Program-made: the position numbers and the translations under genes
Assembly (NCBI GenBank): GCA_036339585.1
Contig: JAYZAS010000018.1
Location: forward strand, 62,001-126,000
DNA: 64,000 nt
Source: Pseudomonadota bacterium
GTDB taxonomy: Bacteria > Pseudomonadota > Alphaproteobacteria > UBA8366
Reading direction: 5' to 3'
The notes under the pieces: model-generated
Told to the model about the DNA's origin: nothing
What the model saw: the letters and a program-made list of their open reading frames with translations, nothing else
Database searches by the model: none
Shown: positions 5,424-26,531 of the stretch, one piece after another
How positions within the stretch are numbered: position 1 is the stretch's first letter
How the letters are laid out: every line of letters begins with the position of its first letter

Positions 5424-6552
5424 TTATTGCCCTTGCATCCCATTTTCGCGATTACCGATAACCCGTTCCGCTAACGCAGCTTCTAGAAAATCATCAATGT
5501 CACCGTCGAGCACTCCCTCCGCATTGCTTTTCTCAACAGCGGTTCGTAGATCTTTGACCATCTTGTATGGATGCAGGACATAGGAGCGTATTTGATGACC
5601 CCAACCTATTTCAGTCTTAGCTGCGTGGTCAGCCGCAGCTTTGTCTTCTCGTTTTTTTAACTCCAATTGGTAGAGTCTTGCTTTCAGCATTGTCATTGCA
5701 GTTGCACGATTACGATGTTGTGAGCGGTCATTTTGGCATTGCACGACGATACCGGTTGGTTCATGAGTTATACGCACGGCACTGTCTGTTCTATTTACGT
5801 GCTGACCGCCCGCGCCCGAGGCACGATAGGTGTCTATACGGATCTCACTGTCGACTATTTCTATTGCAATTGATTCGTCGATAACGGGATAAACCCCGAC
5901 TGAGGCAAAACTTGTGTGCCTACGTGAGGCCGAGTCGAATGGCGAGATGCGAACTAAACGATGAACACCACTTTCCGTCTTAAGCCATCCGTAAGAGTTA
6001 ATGCCAGAAATCTTAAACGTAATCGATTTGATACCCGCCTCCTCACCAGCACTCTCCTCTAGGAGTTCAACTTTACAACCGTGGTTATCGGACCAGCGTG
6101 CGTACATTCTAGAAAGCATTTCTGCCCAATCCTGAGACTCGGTGCCCCCCGCGCCTGCATGCACTTCCAGATAGCAATCATTCCCATCCGCCTCACCTGA
6201 GAGCAGGCTCTCTAATTGTCGCCGTGCTGCCTCTTTCTTCAATTTGATTAATGCCTTTTCGGCGTCTGCAGCAACCTCATTGTCTCCCTCGGCCTCCGCC
6301 ATTTCAATCAGCTCGAGATTGTCCATAAGCCCCTGTTCCATCTGCCAAAAACCATTCATCGCTTCAGAGAGCCGTGTGCGGTCACGCATAATTATTTGTG
6401 CCGTCTCAGGGTTGTCCCAAAGGTTTGGGTCTTCTGCGCATTTATTGAGACGTTCTAGTTCTTTTTTTGACTTTTCGAGGTCAAAGATGCCTCCTTAGCA
6501 GTTCCAAAGACTGCTGAATTTCATCGACAATGTTTTGCAAATCTGCACGCAT
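5424..6552 (-). CDS. prfB: Peptide chain release factor 2 (programmed +1 frameshift)
   Basis: RF2 recognises UAA and UGA stop codons and releases the finished peptide. The gene is read in two frames. It starts at ATG 6552-6550 and encodes 23 codons (ending LELLRRHL) before an in-frame UGA at 6483-6481; a +1 shift at CUU then gives DLEKSKKEL and the rest of the protein, 375 residues in all. The catalytic GGQ loop is visible as [19 protein letters not shown], and the class-2 stop-recognition region and the N-terminal helices are present. If the frameshift is ignored, the gene appears to begin only at Met 6389 and loses its first 54 residues. It lies downstream of the amidase and PBP1A genes on the same strand, an order common in alphaproteobacteria, though the gap to PBP1A is about 270 nt. 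Confidence 0.97.
6480..6495 (-). promoter_or_regulatory. prfB: prfB autoregulatory +1 frameshift site
   Basis: On the minus strand the sequence reads AGGAGG-CAT-CTT-TGA-C. This contains an internal Shine-Dalgarno (6495-6490), the slippery CUU codon (6486-6484), the UGA stop (6483-6481) and the following C (6480). It is the classic RF2 arrangement: low RF2 slows termination at the UGA, and the ribosome, pushed by the SD-anti-SD contact, slips +1 to make more RF2. The internal SD is a perfect AGGAGG. The site implies that UGA termination by RF2 is in use in this organism. Confidence 0.96.
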
Positions 6553-16185: not shown

Positions 16186-17577
16186 ATGTGCCCAAATTTT
16201 TTTGTAAAATATCTGTATCGATTGAATATCATATTTGCCATCTTAATGTGGGGTTGCATTACTATTGTGGCATTTACAAGCACACACGCTCAGGCGCAAG
16301 CCCCTAGGGTTGTTCGAGATACTGAAATAGAAAATACCATTCGTGCATACGGGGCGCCACTTTTTGAAGCTGCTGGTCTGAATTTAGGTGCTGTGAAGAT
16401 CCGTATTATTTTATCCCGAGACCTTAATGCTTTTGTCGCGGGCGGACAGCAGATTTTCGTGAACACTGGTCTTCTAAGTCGAGCCGATGACCCAAGTCAG
16501 GTGATTGGGGTGCTCGCACATGAAATCGGGCACATCACTGGCGGTCATCTTTCAAGAATTCAAGAGGGGCTGCGCAATGCGTCAAACCAATCCATCATTG
16601 CTACAGTGCTTGGTGCCGCAGCAGCTATTGCGGCTGGCCAACCTGAGGGGCTAAGTGGAGCTATCATTGGGGGACAAGCTCTTGGTCAACGCGCTTTATT
16701 TAAATATACCCAAGGTATGGAACAGGCTGCAGATCAAGCTGGCGTCGATATCCTCGACCGCACTGAACAATCCTCCAGAGGATTGCTCAACTTTCTCAAA
16801 ATATTACAAAAAAATGCCTTATTATACACTGCCTCCCGTGACCCCTACGCATCAACACATCCACTCACGAAAGACAGGATATTATTCCTAGAAAATCATG
16901 TTGCGAGCTCTCCCTATTCGAATGTGCAAACGCCACAGCAATATGTGGTTATGCACGCCCGTGCACGTGGTAAAATAAATGGATATGTGAACGATCCAAC
17001 AAAAACCCTAGAGACTTATAAGGCTAGAGATAAGAGTGTTGAGGCACGTTATGCAAGGGCGTATGCCTACATGAAACTCAATGATAAAAGAAATGCACTA
17101 GCGATCATTGATGAGCTTTTATCCGAATCCCCCCAAGATCCGTTTTTTCACGAATTGAAGGGGGACATTTTGAAAAATGCAGCTGATGTCAATGGGGCCA
17201 TCCGATCATATACACGGGCAATAAAAATCATCCCATGGGCAGCGTTGATCCGTGTCAATCTTGCCCGCATGCAACTGGCGCTTAATAATCCAAAACTGGA
17301 TGAAGAAATCATTCTCAATGTGAGGAATGCTCTCCGATACGAGAACAAAATACCGGCGCTTTGGCGTCAATTGGCTACCGTATACGGACGCAGGGGCCAA
17401 ACAGGAAAAGCGTCTTTAGCACTAGCAGAAGAGGCCATGCTGAAAGGAGACTTAAATCGGGCCAAGCAAAATGTTAAAAGGGCGTTAGGAATTTTGTCTG
17501 CAGGGTCACCGGAGCATATTCGCGCCCAAGACATCGAGAATGAGATTACAAATGCATCTATCGATACAGGTCAATAA
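16186..17577 (+). CDS. M48 family metalloprotease with TPR repeats (BepA/YfgC-like)
   Basis: A 463-residue exported zinc protease. The N-terminal hydrophobic segment ends in THAQAQA, a likely signal-peptidase site near residue 38. The M48 domain carries HEIGH (His112, Glu113, His116) and the downstream glutamate region GMEQAADQAG. From about residue 290 the protein is helical with TPR-like repeats (ARAYAYMKLNDKRNAL, ELKGDILKNAADVNGAI). The family includes BepA, which degrades or helps fold outer-membrane proteins such as LptD. ATG 16186 was chosen because the longer frame from 16021 would cross the divergent GGT-like gene. The DsbA-like gene follows directly, so the pair may serve envelope protein quality control. 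Confidence 0.92.
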   Translation: MCPNFFVKYLYRLNIIFAILMWGCITIVAFTSTHAQAQAPRVVRDTEIENTIRAYGAPLFEAAGLNLGAVKIRIILSRDLNAFVAGGQQIFVNTGLLSRADDPSQVIGVLAHEIGHITGGHLSRIQEGLRNASNQSIIATVLGAAAAIAAGQPEGLSGAIIGGQALGQRALFKYTQGMEQAADQAGVDILDRTEQSSRGLLNFLKILQKNALLYTASRDPYASTHPLTKDRILFLENHVASSPYSNVQTPQQYVVMHARARGKINGYVNDPTKTLETYKARDKSVEARYARAYAYMKLNDKRNALAIIDELLSESPQDPFFHELKGDILKNAADVNGAIRSYTRAIKIIPWAALIRVNLARMQLALNNPKLDEEIILNVRNALRYENKIPALWRQLATVYGRRGQTGKASLALAEEAMLKGDLNRAKQNVKRALGILSAGSPEHIRAQDIENEITNASIDTGQ

Positions 17578-17597
17578 TGGACGGAGCTCGAATTAAT

Positions 17598-18353
17598 ATG
17601 AAACGATTTTCCATTATTTCGGCATACGCGCTATTTATTTCCGGGATTTTTTTATTTTTCAGTTTTTCGACTAAAGCTGAGCCTTTCACGCCTTCACAAA
17701 AGAAAGCCATTGAACAGATTATCCAAAACTATCTGCTCAATAAGCCAGAGTTAATAGTAAAATCAATGGAAAAGCTCCGCGAACGAGAACAGGCAGAGCA
17801 AATTAATAAGACCAAAGGATTACTCAGGACTTATTCAGACCGCATTTACCAACATCCAATGTCGCCGTATACAGGCGACAAAAATGGTGACGTAACATTG
17901 GTTGAATTTTTCGATTATCAATGCGGTTACTGTAAACAAGTTACTGAATCAATAATCATGCTCATGAAAAATGATCCGGGTCTACGCGTTGTATTGAAAG
18001 AACTTCCGATTTTAGGCAAAACCTCGTTAATTGCGGCAACTGCGGCTATGGCCTCTAGAAAACAGGGTAAATACTTTGATTTTCACGTTGCGTTAATGAA
18101 AAACCGTGGAAGTTTAAACCCTAAAAGAATTATGAAAATTGCAAAAAGCGTGGGCATTAATACAGCAGAATTAAAAAAAGATATGAGTGATCCTGCAATC
18201 GATACCTATATTGAGGACACTACTGAACTTGCACAAAAGCTAGGAATAAAGGGAACACCTGCATTTATTATCGGCGACCAAATCGTGCCAGGGGCAGCAA
18301 GCCTTAAGCAACTGAAAAAGTTCATCGAGAAAGAACGAAATGGCAAGCAGTAA
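17598..18353 (+). CDS. DsbA family thiol:disulfide oxidoreductase
   Basis: A 251-residue periplasmic thioredoxin-fold protein. A signal peptide covers about residues 1-27 (ending STKA). A helical N-terminal region (about 30-75) precedes the thioredoxin domain, as in Com1/ScsC-like proteins, where it can drive oligomerisation. The active site is CGYC (Cys109, Cys112) in FDYQCGYCKQV and the cis-Pro loop is GTPAFIIGDQIVPGA. ATG 17598 was chosen because GGAG lies about 10 nt upstream and it begins the signal peptide. A nearer ATG at 17577 overlaps the preceding stop and would add seven residues. It is likely translated in an operon with the M48 protease. Oxidase or isomerase activity cannot be told apart. 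Confidence 0.92.
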   Translation: MKRFSIISAYALFISGIFLFFSFSTKAEPFTPSQKKAIEQIIQNYLLNKPELIVKSMEKLREREQAEQINKTKGLLRTYSDRIYQHPMSPYTGDKNGDVTLVEFFDYQCGYCKQVTESIIMLMKNDPGLRVVLKELPILGKTSLIAATAAMASRKQGKYFDFHVALMKNRGSLNPKRIMKIAKSVGINTAELKKDMSDPAIDTYIEDTTELAQKLGIKGTPAFIIGDQIVPGAASLKQLKKFIEKERNGKQ

Positions 18354-18359
18354 TTTACC

Positions 18360-19010
18360 TCAAGGTCGCCAGTCAGTAGCCACATCGTGTTGCTGATTGG
18401 GTGCCGCCTTTTGGAATGCTTGGTGTTGAGCACATTGGGTATCAATTCCTTTTAATGTCGGAAATGCGTCGAAGTCCAGGAAATCATAGCGTTTCGTAGC
18501 ATAAAGCTGTGGCACTAAAAAACAATCAGCCATCAAAGTAGTGTCGCCATGACAGAATTCACCTGTTGATGAATCTTTACTCAGCCAATCCTCAAGCATG
18601 CTTAAACCCTGGTTTGCTCAGTGTGCATAACAATCGTCACGTGCGCTGGTAGTAAATTTCCTTTGAACATAATCTCTAATTCGGCTTGCAAGACGTGGGT
18701 GCATTTCGCAAGCCACAGCTTGAGCGAACGATCGAACGCGTTCTCTTGCGGCCGGATCCTCTGTCACAAAGGACGGTTTTGGATACGTCTCTTCAAGATA
18801 TTCAAATATTGCTACTGATCGGCCTATCTTTAATCCTTTGTCTTGTAAGATAGGTACTACTGATTGGGGATTCACGGCTGCGTACTTACTATTCCATTGC
18901 TCGCGCTTAGCCAGTTTAACTGCCACCATTTCGCTCTCTAAACATTTAAATGCCATAGCAAGTCGTACACGGTAAGCAGCTGAGGATCGTCAATAAGTGT
19001 GAAGTTTCAA
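18360..19010 (-). pseudogene. maiA: Maleylacetoacetate isomerase (zeta-class GST) with two in-frame UGA codons
   Basis: One continuous minus-strand frame of 217 codons matches zeta-class glutathione transferase/maleylacetoacetate isomerase over its full length. It starts at TTG 19010 with AAGGAG 8 nt upstream, located at the end of the S9 peptidase gene. Readable parts are KLHTY-x-RSSAAYRVRLA, NPQSVVPILQD, VAIFEYLEETYP, FAQAVACEMHP, YAH-x-ANQGLSMLEDWL and TTLMADCFLVPQLYA, ending at UGA 18360-18362. The two x positions are UGA at 18992-18990 and 18620-18618. The first falls where bacterial relatives have an aromatic residue (often YWRSS) and the second where they have HW. Three other Trp codons in the gene are UGG. 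No frameshift is needed. The simplest reading is a recent pseudogene with two UGG-to-UGA changes; readthrough or recoding cannot be excluded from sequence. The next gene downstream, the DsbA-like gene, is convergent. Confidence 0.85.
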
Positions 19011-19014
19011 TAAA

Positions 19015-20958
19015 TTACTCCTTACTAAGGCCTCTAGCATTTTCAATGGATAACGTTGGCACGTTTTCCGCCGGCTGAAATCCAAAAACTCTACTATAAA
19101 AATAAAGCTCGCCCTCTAGTGCGCGTTTTATATTCTCAGATTGCCTAAAACCATGCCCTTCATTTGAAAATGGAAGATATGCTACCGGAATGCCGTTTTT
19201 CCGAAGAGCAGTAACCATTGCCTCCGCTTGAGCGGGCGACACAACTTTATCGTCAAGGCCTTGAAAGAAAATCACTGGACAGGTTAGCATTTCAACGAAT
19301 TTAATGGGAGAGCGGTCAGAGAGGTTTGAGTTTTTCTCTGGCAGCGAACCAATAAGAATATCAAGATAACTTGACTCAAATTTGTGTGTTTCTTTTGCTA
19401 ACTCTGAAAGATCTCCAATGCCGTAATAACTAGCACCCGCAGCAAAACAATCCTCAAATGTAATTGCACAAAGAGTTGTATAACCTCCTGCACTATTGCC
19501 AGAAATTGCCATACGGCCTTTATCAACCCAACCTTTTGCAGCTAGCCAATTTGCACCACTAACACAATCTTCAACATCAACCAGACCCCATTTACCATTT
19601 AACTTTTCACGATATGCCCTACCATAACCTGAAGATCCGCGATAATTAACGTCAAGCACCGCAAACCCACGAGTTGTCCAATACTGGGTTTTCAGATTGA
19701 GGGCCGCTGAAGCCTGTCCAGTAGGGCCCCCATGACATTTTACAATAAGCGGAGGGCGGGCATCCAAAGGCCCGACGCAATAGGCATTCTGCGGTTGATA
19801 GAAAAAACCATGCGTTGTTTCATCCTCGCCAACAGGAATCGAGACTGGAATCGGTCTTGAAATATTTGAAACGCCTAAATTTGTCTCTCCTGATTGATAA
19901 ATTATATCAATCTTTTTTTCTTCTAAATTTACCGAAGCCACAGCGGGTAGCTTCAAGAGACTTCCACCTACAAAAATAACCCGTCCGTTTCCAGCTTTTA
20001 ACCCGCTTATGTCTACGAACGAGGAATGTATGGGGCTAAACGCGGATGTTCTGAGATCAACGGTCGCCAGTTTAGAAAGTCCATCCACAATATAACTAAT
20101 TACCACAAGATGCTCGGAAGCGAATCCATATGTCGACAATCCGAAATTCCATTGAGGTACTCCACATTCCGCCTCTAATGGCAAGACCAATTCGACATTA
20201 TTTGCCCGAAGTCTATACAAGTTCCACCAACCGGACCGGTCAGAAACAAAATATAAAGTGCCATCTGGAGCAAATGTTGGCTGAAAAACAGACTCATTGG
20301 GTCCGCCTGCTAACAGCACCCTCTCTCCCACCGAACCGTCATTTTCTATCAAAGCGCGCCAAAGTAAAGTCCCATCCCATGGCATGCACGGATGATCCCA
20401 AGAAAGCCAAGACAACCATTTACCATCATTGGACAACGTTGGTGATGCATAAAAGTCCGCTCCTTCAACCAACGTTACTACTTCGCCAGTATCTCTTATT
20501 CCTATCAGCCGGTTGTAGGGCTCCTTGATACCCTCTATGTGCTCCTCAGATACGGCAATCAGCTGGTTTCGATTGGGGTCACGCACAAGATCCGCATACC
20601 GACAATTTTTGCCAGAAGTGATGGGAACAGCCGATCCAGCTCGCGATTTATGCCACACACGGCAGTCATTCACGTCACTATACCAAAGTTCGCCTCTCTC
20701 TACGCAATATGCCCCCCCGCCATACTCATGCACACGAGATCGAACATTAGAGTTTGGCGGCGAAAAATCTTCGACTACGCCTTTTTCTCCGAGCTTACAA
20801 ACAACACTGCGACCTTTATCGTTCGCTCGCACCTCGTTCCAATAGACATCCGATCCATCAAGACAAAGCTGACCAAGCGAAACTGTGTCATCTGCAATCC
20901 ACTCTGCGCTTAGCGACGATGACCAACCACCGTAGGGAACAATTTTTCTTTGTAACAT
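19015..20958 (-). CDS. S9 family peptidase (prolyl oligopeptidase / acylaminoacyl-peptidase type)
   Basis: A 647-residue serine peptidase with an N-terminal beta-propeller (about 1-370; blocks such as VHEYGGGAY and FVSDRSGWWNLYRL) and a C-terminal alpha/beta-hydrolase domain. The latter has KCHGGPTGQA, NYRGSSGYGRAYREKLNG, the nucleophile Ser in SGNSAGGYTT near residue 488, the Asp region LDDKVVSPAQAE and the His in NEGHGFRQ. There is no signal peptide, so it is probably cytoplasmic and degrades short peptides. The length is normal. The stop (TAA at 19017-19015) is 4 nt before the TTG of the maiA-like gene, so the two form one transcript. Confidence 0.93.
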   Translation of the reverse strand: MLQRKIVPYGGWSSSLSAEWIADDTVSLGQLCLDGSDVYWNEVRANDKGRSVVCKLGEKGVVEDFSPPNSNVRSRVHEYGGGAYCVERGELWYSDVNDCRVWHKSRAGSAVPITSGKNCRYADLVRDPNRNQLIAVSEEHIEGIKEPYNRLIGIRDTGEVVTLVEGADFYASPTLSNDGKWLSWLSWDHPCMPWDGTLLWRALIENDGSVGERVLLAGGPNESVFQPTFAPDGTLYFVSDRSGWWNLYRLRANNVELVLPLEAECGVPQWNFGLSTYGFASEHLVVISYIVDGLSKLATVDLRTSAFSPIHSSFVDISGLKAGNGRVIFVGGSLLKLPAVASVNLEEKKIDIIYQSGETNLGVSNISRPIPVSIPVGEDETTHGFFYQPQNAYCVGPLDARPPLIVKCHGGPTGQASAALNLKTQYWTTRGFAVLDVNYRGSSGYGRAYREKLNGKWGLVDVEDCVSGANWLAAKGWVDKGRMAISGNSAGGYTTLCAITFEDCFAAGASYYGIGDLSELAKETHKFESSYLDILIGSLPEKNSNLSDRSPIKFVEMLTCPVIFFQGLDDKVVSPAQAEAMVTALRKNGIPVAYLPFSNEGHGFRQSENIKRALEGELYFYSRVFGFQPAENVPTLSIENARGLSKE

Positions 20959-24656: not shown

Positions 24657-25178
24657 TTAGAGCCCTGGTGATTGAGACACCGGACCTTCGCGAACCAATA
24701 CCAGTACTCGCTCTAAGAGTTCGCCGAGCGATATAACGTCTTTTGTTTTTGTGAGCTCCGCCCCATCACCAAGAGATTTTTTCCCACCACCGGGCTCAAG
24801 TTTTATATAATTGCCGCCGAGTAGCCCATCGTTACCTATTCTCACCCGCGTATCACCTGTTAGGCGAATATCAGGCCTAATCGTCATTGTTACAACTGCT
24901 TTAAACGTTTGGGGATCAACTTTTTGATCTATTACTGTGCCAACCTTAACGCCGCCGATACGCACATCACTCCCTATTACCAGCCCATCAACAGAGGTGA
25001 ACTGAGCAGTGACCTTAAAACCACCCTCCGGCTTTAAGTCGGTGGATATAAATGCGAAATAAACTGATATTCCAATAACTAATAAAACAACAAATCCAAG
25101 AACCGCCTCCGCAGTTTTTCGCGAGAATAGTGCTTGTGCTCCGATGTCAGGATTTTTCCCTCTAAAATTTGATTTCAT
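24657..25178 (-). CDS. MCE domain lipid-transport protein (MlaD family), copy 1 (distal)
   Basis: A 173-residue protein with an N-terminal membrane helix (AEAVLGFVVLLVIGISVYFAF, about 24-44) and one MCE domain (VTAQFTSVDGLVIGSDVRIGGVKVGTV up to GNYIKLEPGG). MlaD-type proteins form periplasmic hexamers that carry phospholipids between membranes, with the MlaE permease and MlaF ATPase; neither is in the window. The C-terminal tail LGELLERVLVLVREG is a short helix. The start ATG overlaps the stop of the preceding MCE gene as TGATG, indicating coupled translation. It is one of three adjacent paralogues that differ clearly from each other. This copy has the closest match to the usual single alphaproteobacterial MlaD. 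Confidence 0.9.
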   Translation of the reverse strand: MKSNFRGKNPDIGAQALFSRKTAEAVLGFVVLLVIGISVYFAFISTDLKPEGGFKVTAQFTSVDGLVIGSDVRIGGVKVGTVIDQKVDPQTFKAVVTMTIRPDIRLTGDTRVRIGNDGLLGGNYIKLEPGGGKKSLGDGAELTKTKDVISLGELLERVLVLVREGPVSQSPGL

Positions 25179-25633
25179 CAGAGATCGCCTCCCACACCCA
25201 AACCGAAGATTTCCTTCCCAACAGTAGTTTCAACCGGCTCTACATCTTTAGTATTTTTCAAAAAAAGCCCATTCTGGTTAGAAAGCTTGCCTTGACCCGG
25301 TTCAAGAGCAATGTATTTCCCCCCAAGCACCCCCTCCGAAACGACTGCGGCTGCAGTATCAAAGGGTAATTTCAATTCTTTCAGGATTTGCATCTGCACA
25401 AGCGCGCGGTAATCTTGTTGATCTATTGTAAGGCCAACGACGGTGCCAACTTTTACGCCGCCAATCCGGACATCGTTCCCGACACCAAGACCATCAACAG
25501 AATTAAATTTTGCTTTCAATTCCCAACCTTGAATCGAAGCGATGTTGCCAACGTTTTGTGCGAAAACGAGAAAAACTCCTGCTACCACAAGAACCATGGC
25601 GGCTAGAGTGGTCTCCAATACATTTCTTTTCAT
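25178..25633 (-). CDS. MCE domain lipid-transport protein (MlaD family), copy 2 (middle)
   Basis: A 151-residue paralogue of its neighbours. It has an N-terminal membrane helix (ETTLAAMVLVVAGVFLVFA, about 7-25) and an MCE domain (LKAKFNSVDGLGVGNDVRIGGVKVGTVVG, then SEGVLGGKYIALEPGQG). The C-terminal tail (TTVGKEIFGLGVGGDL) is short and lacks the helix seen in copies 1 and 3. It ends in UGA within a TGATG overlap with copy 1, and begins 17 nt after copy 3. Likely a subunit of the same or a mixed MCE ring. Confidence 0.88.
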   Translation of the reverse strand: MKRNVLETTLAAMVLVVAGVFLVFAQNVGNIASIQGWELKAKFNSVDGLGVGNDVRIGGVKVGTVVGLTIDQQDYRALVQMQILKELKLPFDTAAAVVSEGVLGGKYIALEPGQGKLSNQNGLFLKNTKDVEPVETTVGKEIFGLGVGGDL

Positions 25634-25650
25634 TTGCCCACACCCACAGA

Positions 25651-26175
25651 TTAAGGGTTAAGAATGCTAAATGGGTTATCCGTCTTCTTCGCCGATGCCG
25701 GTCCAATTGCTTGTGCACGTTTTTCTTCAGCCTCAATCACAATTTTTTCTAATAGTTCTAGAAGTGGTATAGAATCTTGGACGAATTCGAAGGTATCACC
25801 GGACTTCATATTTGCCTCAGATCCACCGGGCTCTATTTTAAGGTATTTTGGGCCAAGCAACCCATCGGAAACAATCGAGATTGTACTTTCATGCGGAACC
25901 TTAGTTTCCTTTTGAAATGCCATCTTTACTAGAACATTTTGTCGATTGGTATCATATTCTCGCGCCGTGACTTGTCCAACCTTAATGCCAGTAAGAACAA
26001 CATCACTGCCAACTGAAATACCATCGGTTGCATTGAAACGGGCGCTCAAAAGATAACCCGCAGCCTCACCCTTCGGCCCGCTTTGGTACGACAACAGAAA
26101 TAGTGCCGCAGTTAGCCCGATTACTAACATACCTAGCAAAATGTGTTTGATTTCGTGCCTTGATTCCTCTCCCAT
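25651..26175 (-). CDS. MCE domain lipid-transport protein (MlaD family), copy 3 (proximal)
   Basis: Another MCE protein, 174 residues from ATG 26175, with a membrane helix (ILLGMLVIGLTAALFLLSY, about 12-30) and an MCE domain (LSARFNATDGISVGSDVVLTGIKVG, then SDGLLGPKYLKIEPGG). A C-terminal helix (PLLELLEKIVIEAEEKRAQ) follows, as in canonical MlaD. The start is uncertain: ATG 26175 overlaps the NDUFA12 stop as TAATG and is preferred; ATG 26190 would add five residues. Its MCE core diverges most from the other two (VVLTGIKVG in place of VRIGGVKVG), so it may have a different position in the complex. Confidence 0.88.
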   Translation of the reverse strand: MGEESRHEIKHILLGMLVIGLTAALFLLSYQSGPKGEAAGYLLSARFNATDGISVGSDVVLTGIKVGQVTAREYDTNRQNVLVKMAFQKETKVPHESTISIVSDGLLGPKYLKIEPGGSEANMKSGDTFEFVQDSIPLLELLEKIVIEAEEKRAQAIGPASAKKTDNPFSILNP

Positions 26176-26531
26176 TAATTTGGCTTCCATGATTCATAGT
26201 CGCCCGTGGCACGATCACGTTTACCGCTTTTTAGCGTGTGTCCGGGCGGACGATAGGCACTTTCTGTTCCGGTCAGGTTCGGGATGTGCTTTCTTTGCCA
26301 GGCGTGTGTCTTAACATTGTCTAGTGGCGGTTCACTTACGGTGTAGTGAAGCCAACCGTTCCATGGCGCCGGGACCTGACTAGCTTCGTCATCTCCGGCG
26401 TAAACCACCCAGCGTTTGCGTCGCCCAGGGCCAGTATTACGTCGTTTTTGGTAGTATCGATTTCCCGACTCGTCTGAGCCCACATAAGCGCCGCTAAGCA
26501 ACGTAATCATTCGTGTGATCATCGTCGGCAT
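26175..26531 (-). CDS. NDUFA12 / complex I B17.2 family protein
   Basis: A 118-residue protein matching the NADH:ubiquinone oxidoreductase NDUFA12 accessory-subunit family. It has the typical core VGSDESGNRYYQKR, RRKRWVVYAGDDEASQVPAPWNGWLHY and the C-terminal basic tail with PGHTL and YESWKPN. In alphaproteobacteria it is a supernumerary complex I subunit at the inner membrane. ATG 26531 was chosen because GGAGG lies 8 nt upstream. It heads an operon with three MCE genes and DUF2155. Its stop overlaps the next start (TAATG). Confidence 0.93.
   Translation of the reverse strand: MPTMITRMITLLSGAYVGSDESGNRYYQKRRNTGPGRRKRWVVYAGDDEASQVPAPWNGWLHYTVSEPPLDNVKTHAWQRKHIPNLTGTESAYRPPGHTLKSGKRDRATGDYESWKPN

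Follow-up and report, generated by a model that had tools for sequence, protein, structure and literature searches.

The maiA gene carried by the window, the whole 64,000-nucleotide stretch of DNA that was analyzed, is in all likelihood a unitary pseudogene that arose by ordinary gene decay. The gene belongs to the zeta-class GST/maleylacetoacetate isomerase family and occupies positions 18360..19010 of the minus strand, with 216 sense or former sense codons and a terminal TGA. Its frame of 217 codons, terminal TGA included, begins at a TTG start codon (19010-19008), and the read-through protein matches the maiA model TIGR01262 at 210.8 bits over positions 1-210 of 211, the curated cut-off being 171.05 bits. 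The frame is interrupted by internal TGA codons at codon 7 (18990..18992, minus strand) and codon 131 (18618..18620, minus strand) and by no other stop. Thus far the original prediction, which described a full-length frame broken only by UGA at these two places, was accurate. It was also right that the TTG lies on the minus strand 4 nt past the stop codon (TAA, 19017-19015) of the S9 prolyl-oligopeptidase-family gene (19015..20958, minus strand), which is intact and lies upstream of maiA here as in four related genomes. The Shine-Dalgarno-like AAGGAG (19018..19023, minus strand) is 7 nt before the TTG rather than the 8 nt proposed. The survival of this start codon and Shine-Dalgarno sequence speaks against a pseudogene. 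On the other side, maiA converges with an intact DsbA/ScsC-like gene (17577..18353, plus strand) that is syntenic in relatives.

Evidence for decay comes from comparison with related genomes, namely the congeners G001 and G002 and two members of another genus of the same family, G005 and G009. The gene order S9 peptidase, maiA, dsbA, M48 is common to all four, and because it is kept we take their maiA copies to be true orthologues. All four have TGG at both UGA sites, and among 46 relatives the equivalent of codon 7 is W, F, or Y in 43 and that of codon 131 is W or F in 45 (the relatives show F, W, and Y there, and a single C), in line with the aromatic or tryptophan residues that had been expected there. 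G002 carries an intact maiA, so an intact syntenic orthologue exists in a close relative, and the window copy has no indel relative to it, which bears out the claim that no frameshift is present. The G009 copy is intact as well. The G001 copy, in contrast, is disrupted by a 1-nt insertion near its start codon and by premature stops at codons 97, 114, 116, and 134; some of these lesions could be errors, as the gene adjoins a contig end with nearby N bases. The syntenic copy in G005 (G005:C8:6864-7508) has a premature TAA at codon 56. Different lesions thus disrupt three of the five syntenic copies. The G005 genome also contains two additional open maiA-like genes. Three further genomes (G022, G093, and G042) were considered as carriers of a maiA with an internal TGA and were set aside, since in their translations the TGA is simply the terminal stop of the gene.

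The window copy has also degraded in its sense codons, contrary to the view that it is otherwise intact. Its sense codons carry 16 nonsynonymous changes that are private to it, three of which, Q64R, P83T, and W127C, strike sites that are invariant in the 46 relatives. Codon 64 (18819..18821, minus strand) has changed from CAA to CGA and now encodes Arg where 46 of 46 relatives have Gln, and codon 127 (18630..18632, minus strand) has changed from TGG to TGT, giving Cys where 46 of 46 have Trp. Q64 is the glutamine of the QS motif, through which zeta-class GSTs bind glutathione. For each of the three congeners we calculated omega from the changes that it alone carries, the counts being modest. 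On the window genome's own branch maiA has 18 nonsynonymous and 12 synonymous changes (omega 0.41, bootstrap range 0.17-0.84, below 1), and on the G001 branch 20 and 11 (omega 0.50), while the intact copy of G002 has 17 and 25 (omega 0.19). Purifying selection on the window copy is thus relaxed relative to six neighbor genes, for which own-branch omega is 0.02-0.26; most neighbors lie at about 0.1-0.2, and dsbA, outside these six, has an omega of 0.43 on 16 changes. The ratio of nonsynonymous to synonymous changes in the window copy exceeds that of the pooled neighbors (Fisher p 0.004; 0.011 without nonsense codons; 0.005 also without dsbA), as does that of the G001 copy (p 0.0009), whereas the intact G002 copy shows no significant difference (p 0.31). 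Since omega is below 1, constraint on maiA lasted for part of the branch; the value fits a gene that was constrained for much of that time and released later. The original prediction of a "very recent" pseudogene with merely two UGG-to-UGA changes was too strong, as other nonsynonymous changes have built up; the data fit a decay that is recent, but not so recent that the two stops alone accumulated.

The metabolic context suggests how selection on maiA may have been relaxed. Fumarylacetoacetase (FAH), homogentisate dioxygenase (HmgA), and gentisate dioxygenase gave no match in the window genome, G001, or G002, all draft genomes that may miss genes, whereas G009, in which maiA is intact, has a gentisate dioxygenase above cut-off. 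We propose that in the ancestor of the family maiA would have stood behind the S9 peptidase gene. Because the three enzymes that make or use its substrate are undetected in the genus, selection on maiA would have been relaxed there, and the absent pathway is a plausible cause. In the window species, two TGG codons would then have turned into TGA by transition and invariant sites would have taken several missense changes, and a sister species would have lost the gene in an independent event. A ribosome that starts at the TTG would meet the first UGA after six residues, and the fragment between the two stops would lack the glutathione-binding N-terminus. We infer that loss of the pathway preceded the decay of maiA and that no MaiA protein is made. 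An internal start at 18956, opening a 112-amino-acid ORF, was rejected as the source of a product; its protein would be missing the N-terminal strand and helix, and no Shine-Dalgarno sequence is evident.

The original prediction had offered a pseudogene, a sequence error, or recoding of the UGA codons as explanations. Only the first stood, on the relaxed constraint and the lost invariant residues; a two-base error did not, and recoding failed on SECIS, tRNA, and comparative grounds. That maiA is a functional gene in which both codons were misread during sequencing, amplification, or assembly is very unlikely. The genome is a 2.79-Mb draft assembly of 25 contigs, which speaks for such errors, but two base errors leave unaccounted for both the 16 private sense-codon changes and the independent breakage of the gene in G001 and G005. 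Moreover, the neighboring genes of this contig have open frames and are conserved.

Recoding of the maiA UGAs is, taken over all its forms, highly improbable. Raised nonsynonymous divergence elsewhere in the gene had been named in advance as a sign that would tell against it, and own-branch omega of about 0.4 and the loss of Q64, P83, and W127 are such a sign. One form, in which a suppressor tRNA, an altered genetic code, or strong readthrough of the stop lets UGA be read as tryptophan, deserves extremely little credence. Both UGAs occupy Trp positions, and the first stands in the context UGAC, a leaky stop context. However, a reading of all 41 RF00005 matches and of tRNA-Sec found a single tRNA-Trp, with anticodon CCA, and the anticodon UCA in tRNA-Sec alone; the UGA-suppressing tRNA-Trp(UCA) that had been suggested was not among them, although in a draft genome this absence is not absolute. 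RF2 (prfB) is present (504.9 bits), and UGA is used as a stop, TGA ending 9 of 44 selected ORFs of the window and maiA as well. Basal readthrough of two serial stops would be negligible, and the relaxed constraint on maiA also speaks against readthrough as Trp. The chance that both nonsense changes would be Trp to UGA is about 0.7-1.3% under random nonsense mutation with kappa 2-4, which counts against a pseudogene, but the surprise is inflated by the fact that the case was picked for this very pattern; a mutation bias from G:C to A:T would make that chance larger, and we treat the pattern as a coincidence. That a MaiA protein is translated by reading through one or both UGAs, by SECIS-independent use of selenocysteine or by Trp-inserting suppression, is likewise a scenario to which we give hardly any weight. 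The prfB gene itself (5424-6491, minus strand) has a short N-terminal frame that reads AGGAGG CAT CTT TGA C, with the site at about 6480-6486, a classical programmed +1 frameshift site; the ORF listing gives the downstream part alone (5424-6389).

The remaining form, in which the UGA at codon 7 is decoded as selenocysteine by SelB and tRNA-Sec, is next to impossible, even though the genome has the machinery for it. The tRNA-Sec that had been proposed as worth seeking was found (69.8 bits, anticodon UCA), with the SelB gene (442.9 bits) directly upstream of it, and a SelA homologue, recognized by reading its sequence, shares one contig with a UGSC selenoprotein frame, so that selA, selB, and selC are all present if SelA is accepted by inspection. 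UGA is very probably a selenocysteine sense codon in at least one gene of this genome. The context of codon 7, U-R-S-S, forms a UxxS motif where helix 1 of a thioredoxin-fold domain begins, and there are reports of GST-like selenoproteins in marine metagenomes (PMC2398784, the GOS survey; PMC13188914). Yet neither maiA UGA has a SECIS element. Under the published bSECIS model (PMC13188914), the hairpin must reach -7.5 kcal/mol or below, its apical loop must lie 16-37 nt from the UGA, and there must be a G within the first two nucleotides of the loop. At codon 7 the best correctly placed hairpin reaches -2.4 kcal/mol, which 78% of random UGAs equal or surpass, and at codon 131 the best reaches -4.8 kcal/mol without the loop G, which 62% of random UGAs equal or surpass. 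The UGSC gene, as an internal positive control, has a hairpin of -18.1 kcal/mol with a spacing of 18 and the loop UGUAU, which contains the G; 1.5% of random UGAs match it. In addition, the four nearest orthologues carry Trp and not Cys at the UGA sites, and selenocysteine at codon 7 would also require the second UGA to be decoded, at a structural Trp site. As for the selA-selB-selC cluster (G000:C10:38000-48000, referred to as L150), it is followed by an AhpD/CMD-like protein in which SKSS replaces the usual CxxC region, a 376-amino-acid protein, and the UGSC selenoprotein frame, whose UGA lies at L150 7618 and has a strong SECIS-like hairpin.

Compared with known systems, the window gene resembles intact maiA (TIGR01262), as in the G002 orthologue, in its homology over the full length, its size, its place in the operon, and its start signal, but differs in its two premature UGAs and its changed Q64, P83, and W127. 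With the GST-like selenoproteins of marine bacteria (PMC2398784) it has in common a GST fold, an in-frame UGA, and a host with the Sec machinery; unlike them, it lacks a SECIS, is matched by Trp and not Cys in its orthologues, contains two UGAs, and is under relaxed constraint. The best resemblance is to bacterial unitary pseudogenes that follow pathway loss, with independent lesions in sister lineages, relaxed dN/dS, intact flanks, and pathway partners that were not found, and from these it differs in nothing notable, save for the coincidence that each of its stops is a former Trp codon turned into UGA. In itself the case matters little, being one more unitary pseudogene. It does advise caution, in that recoding cannot be read from in-frame UGAs at Trp sites when a genome decodes Sec. 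The case also shows the same enzyme lost in parallel in related marine lineages. Elsewhere in the window, three tandem MlaD-like genes of the MCE family lie at 24657-26190 on the minus strand and score 107-126 bits to TIGR04430, for which the cut-off is 135.
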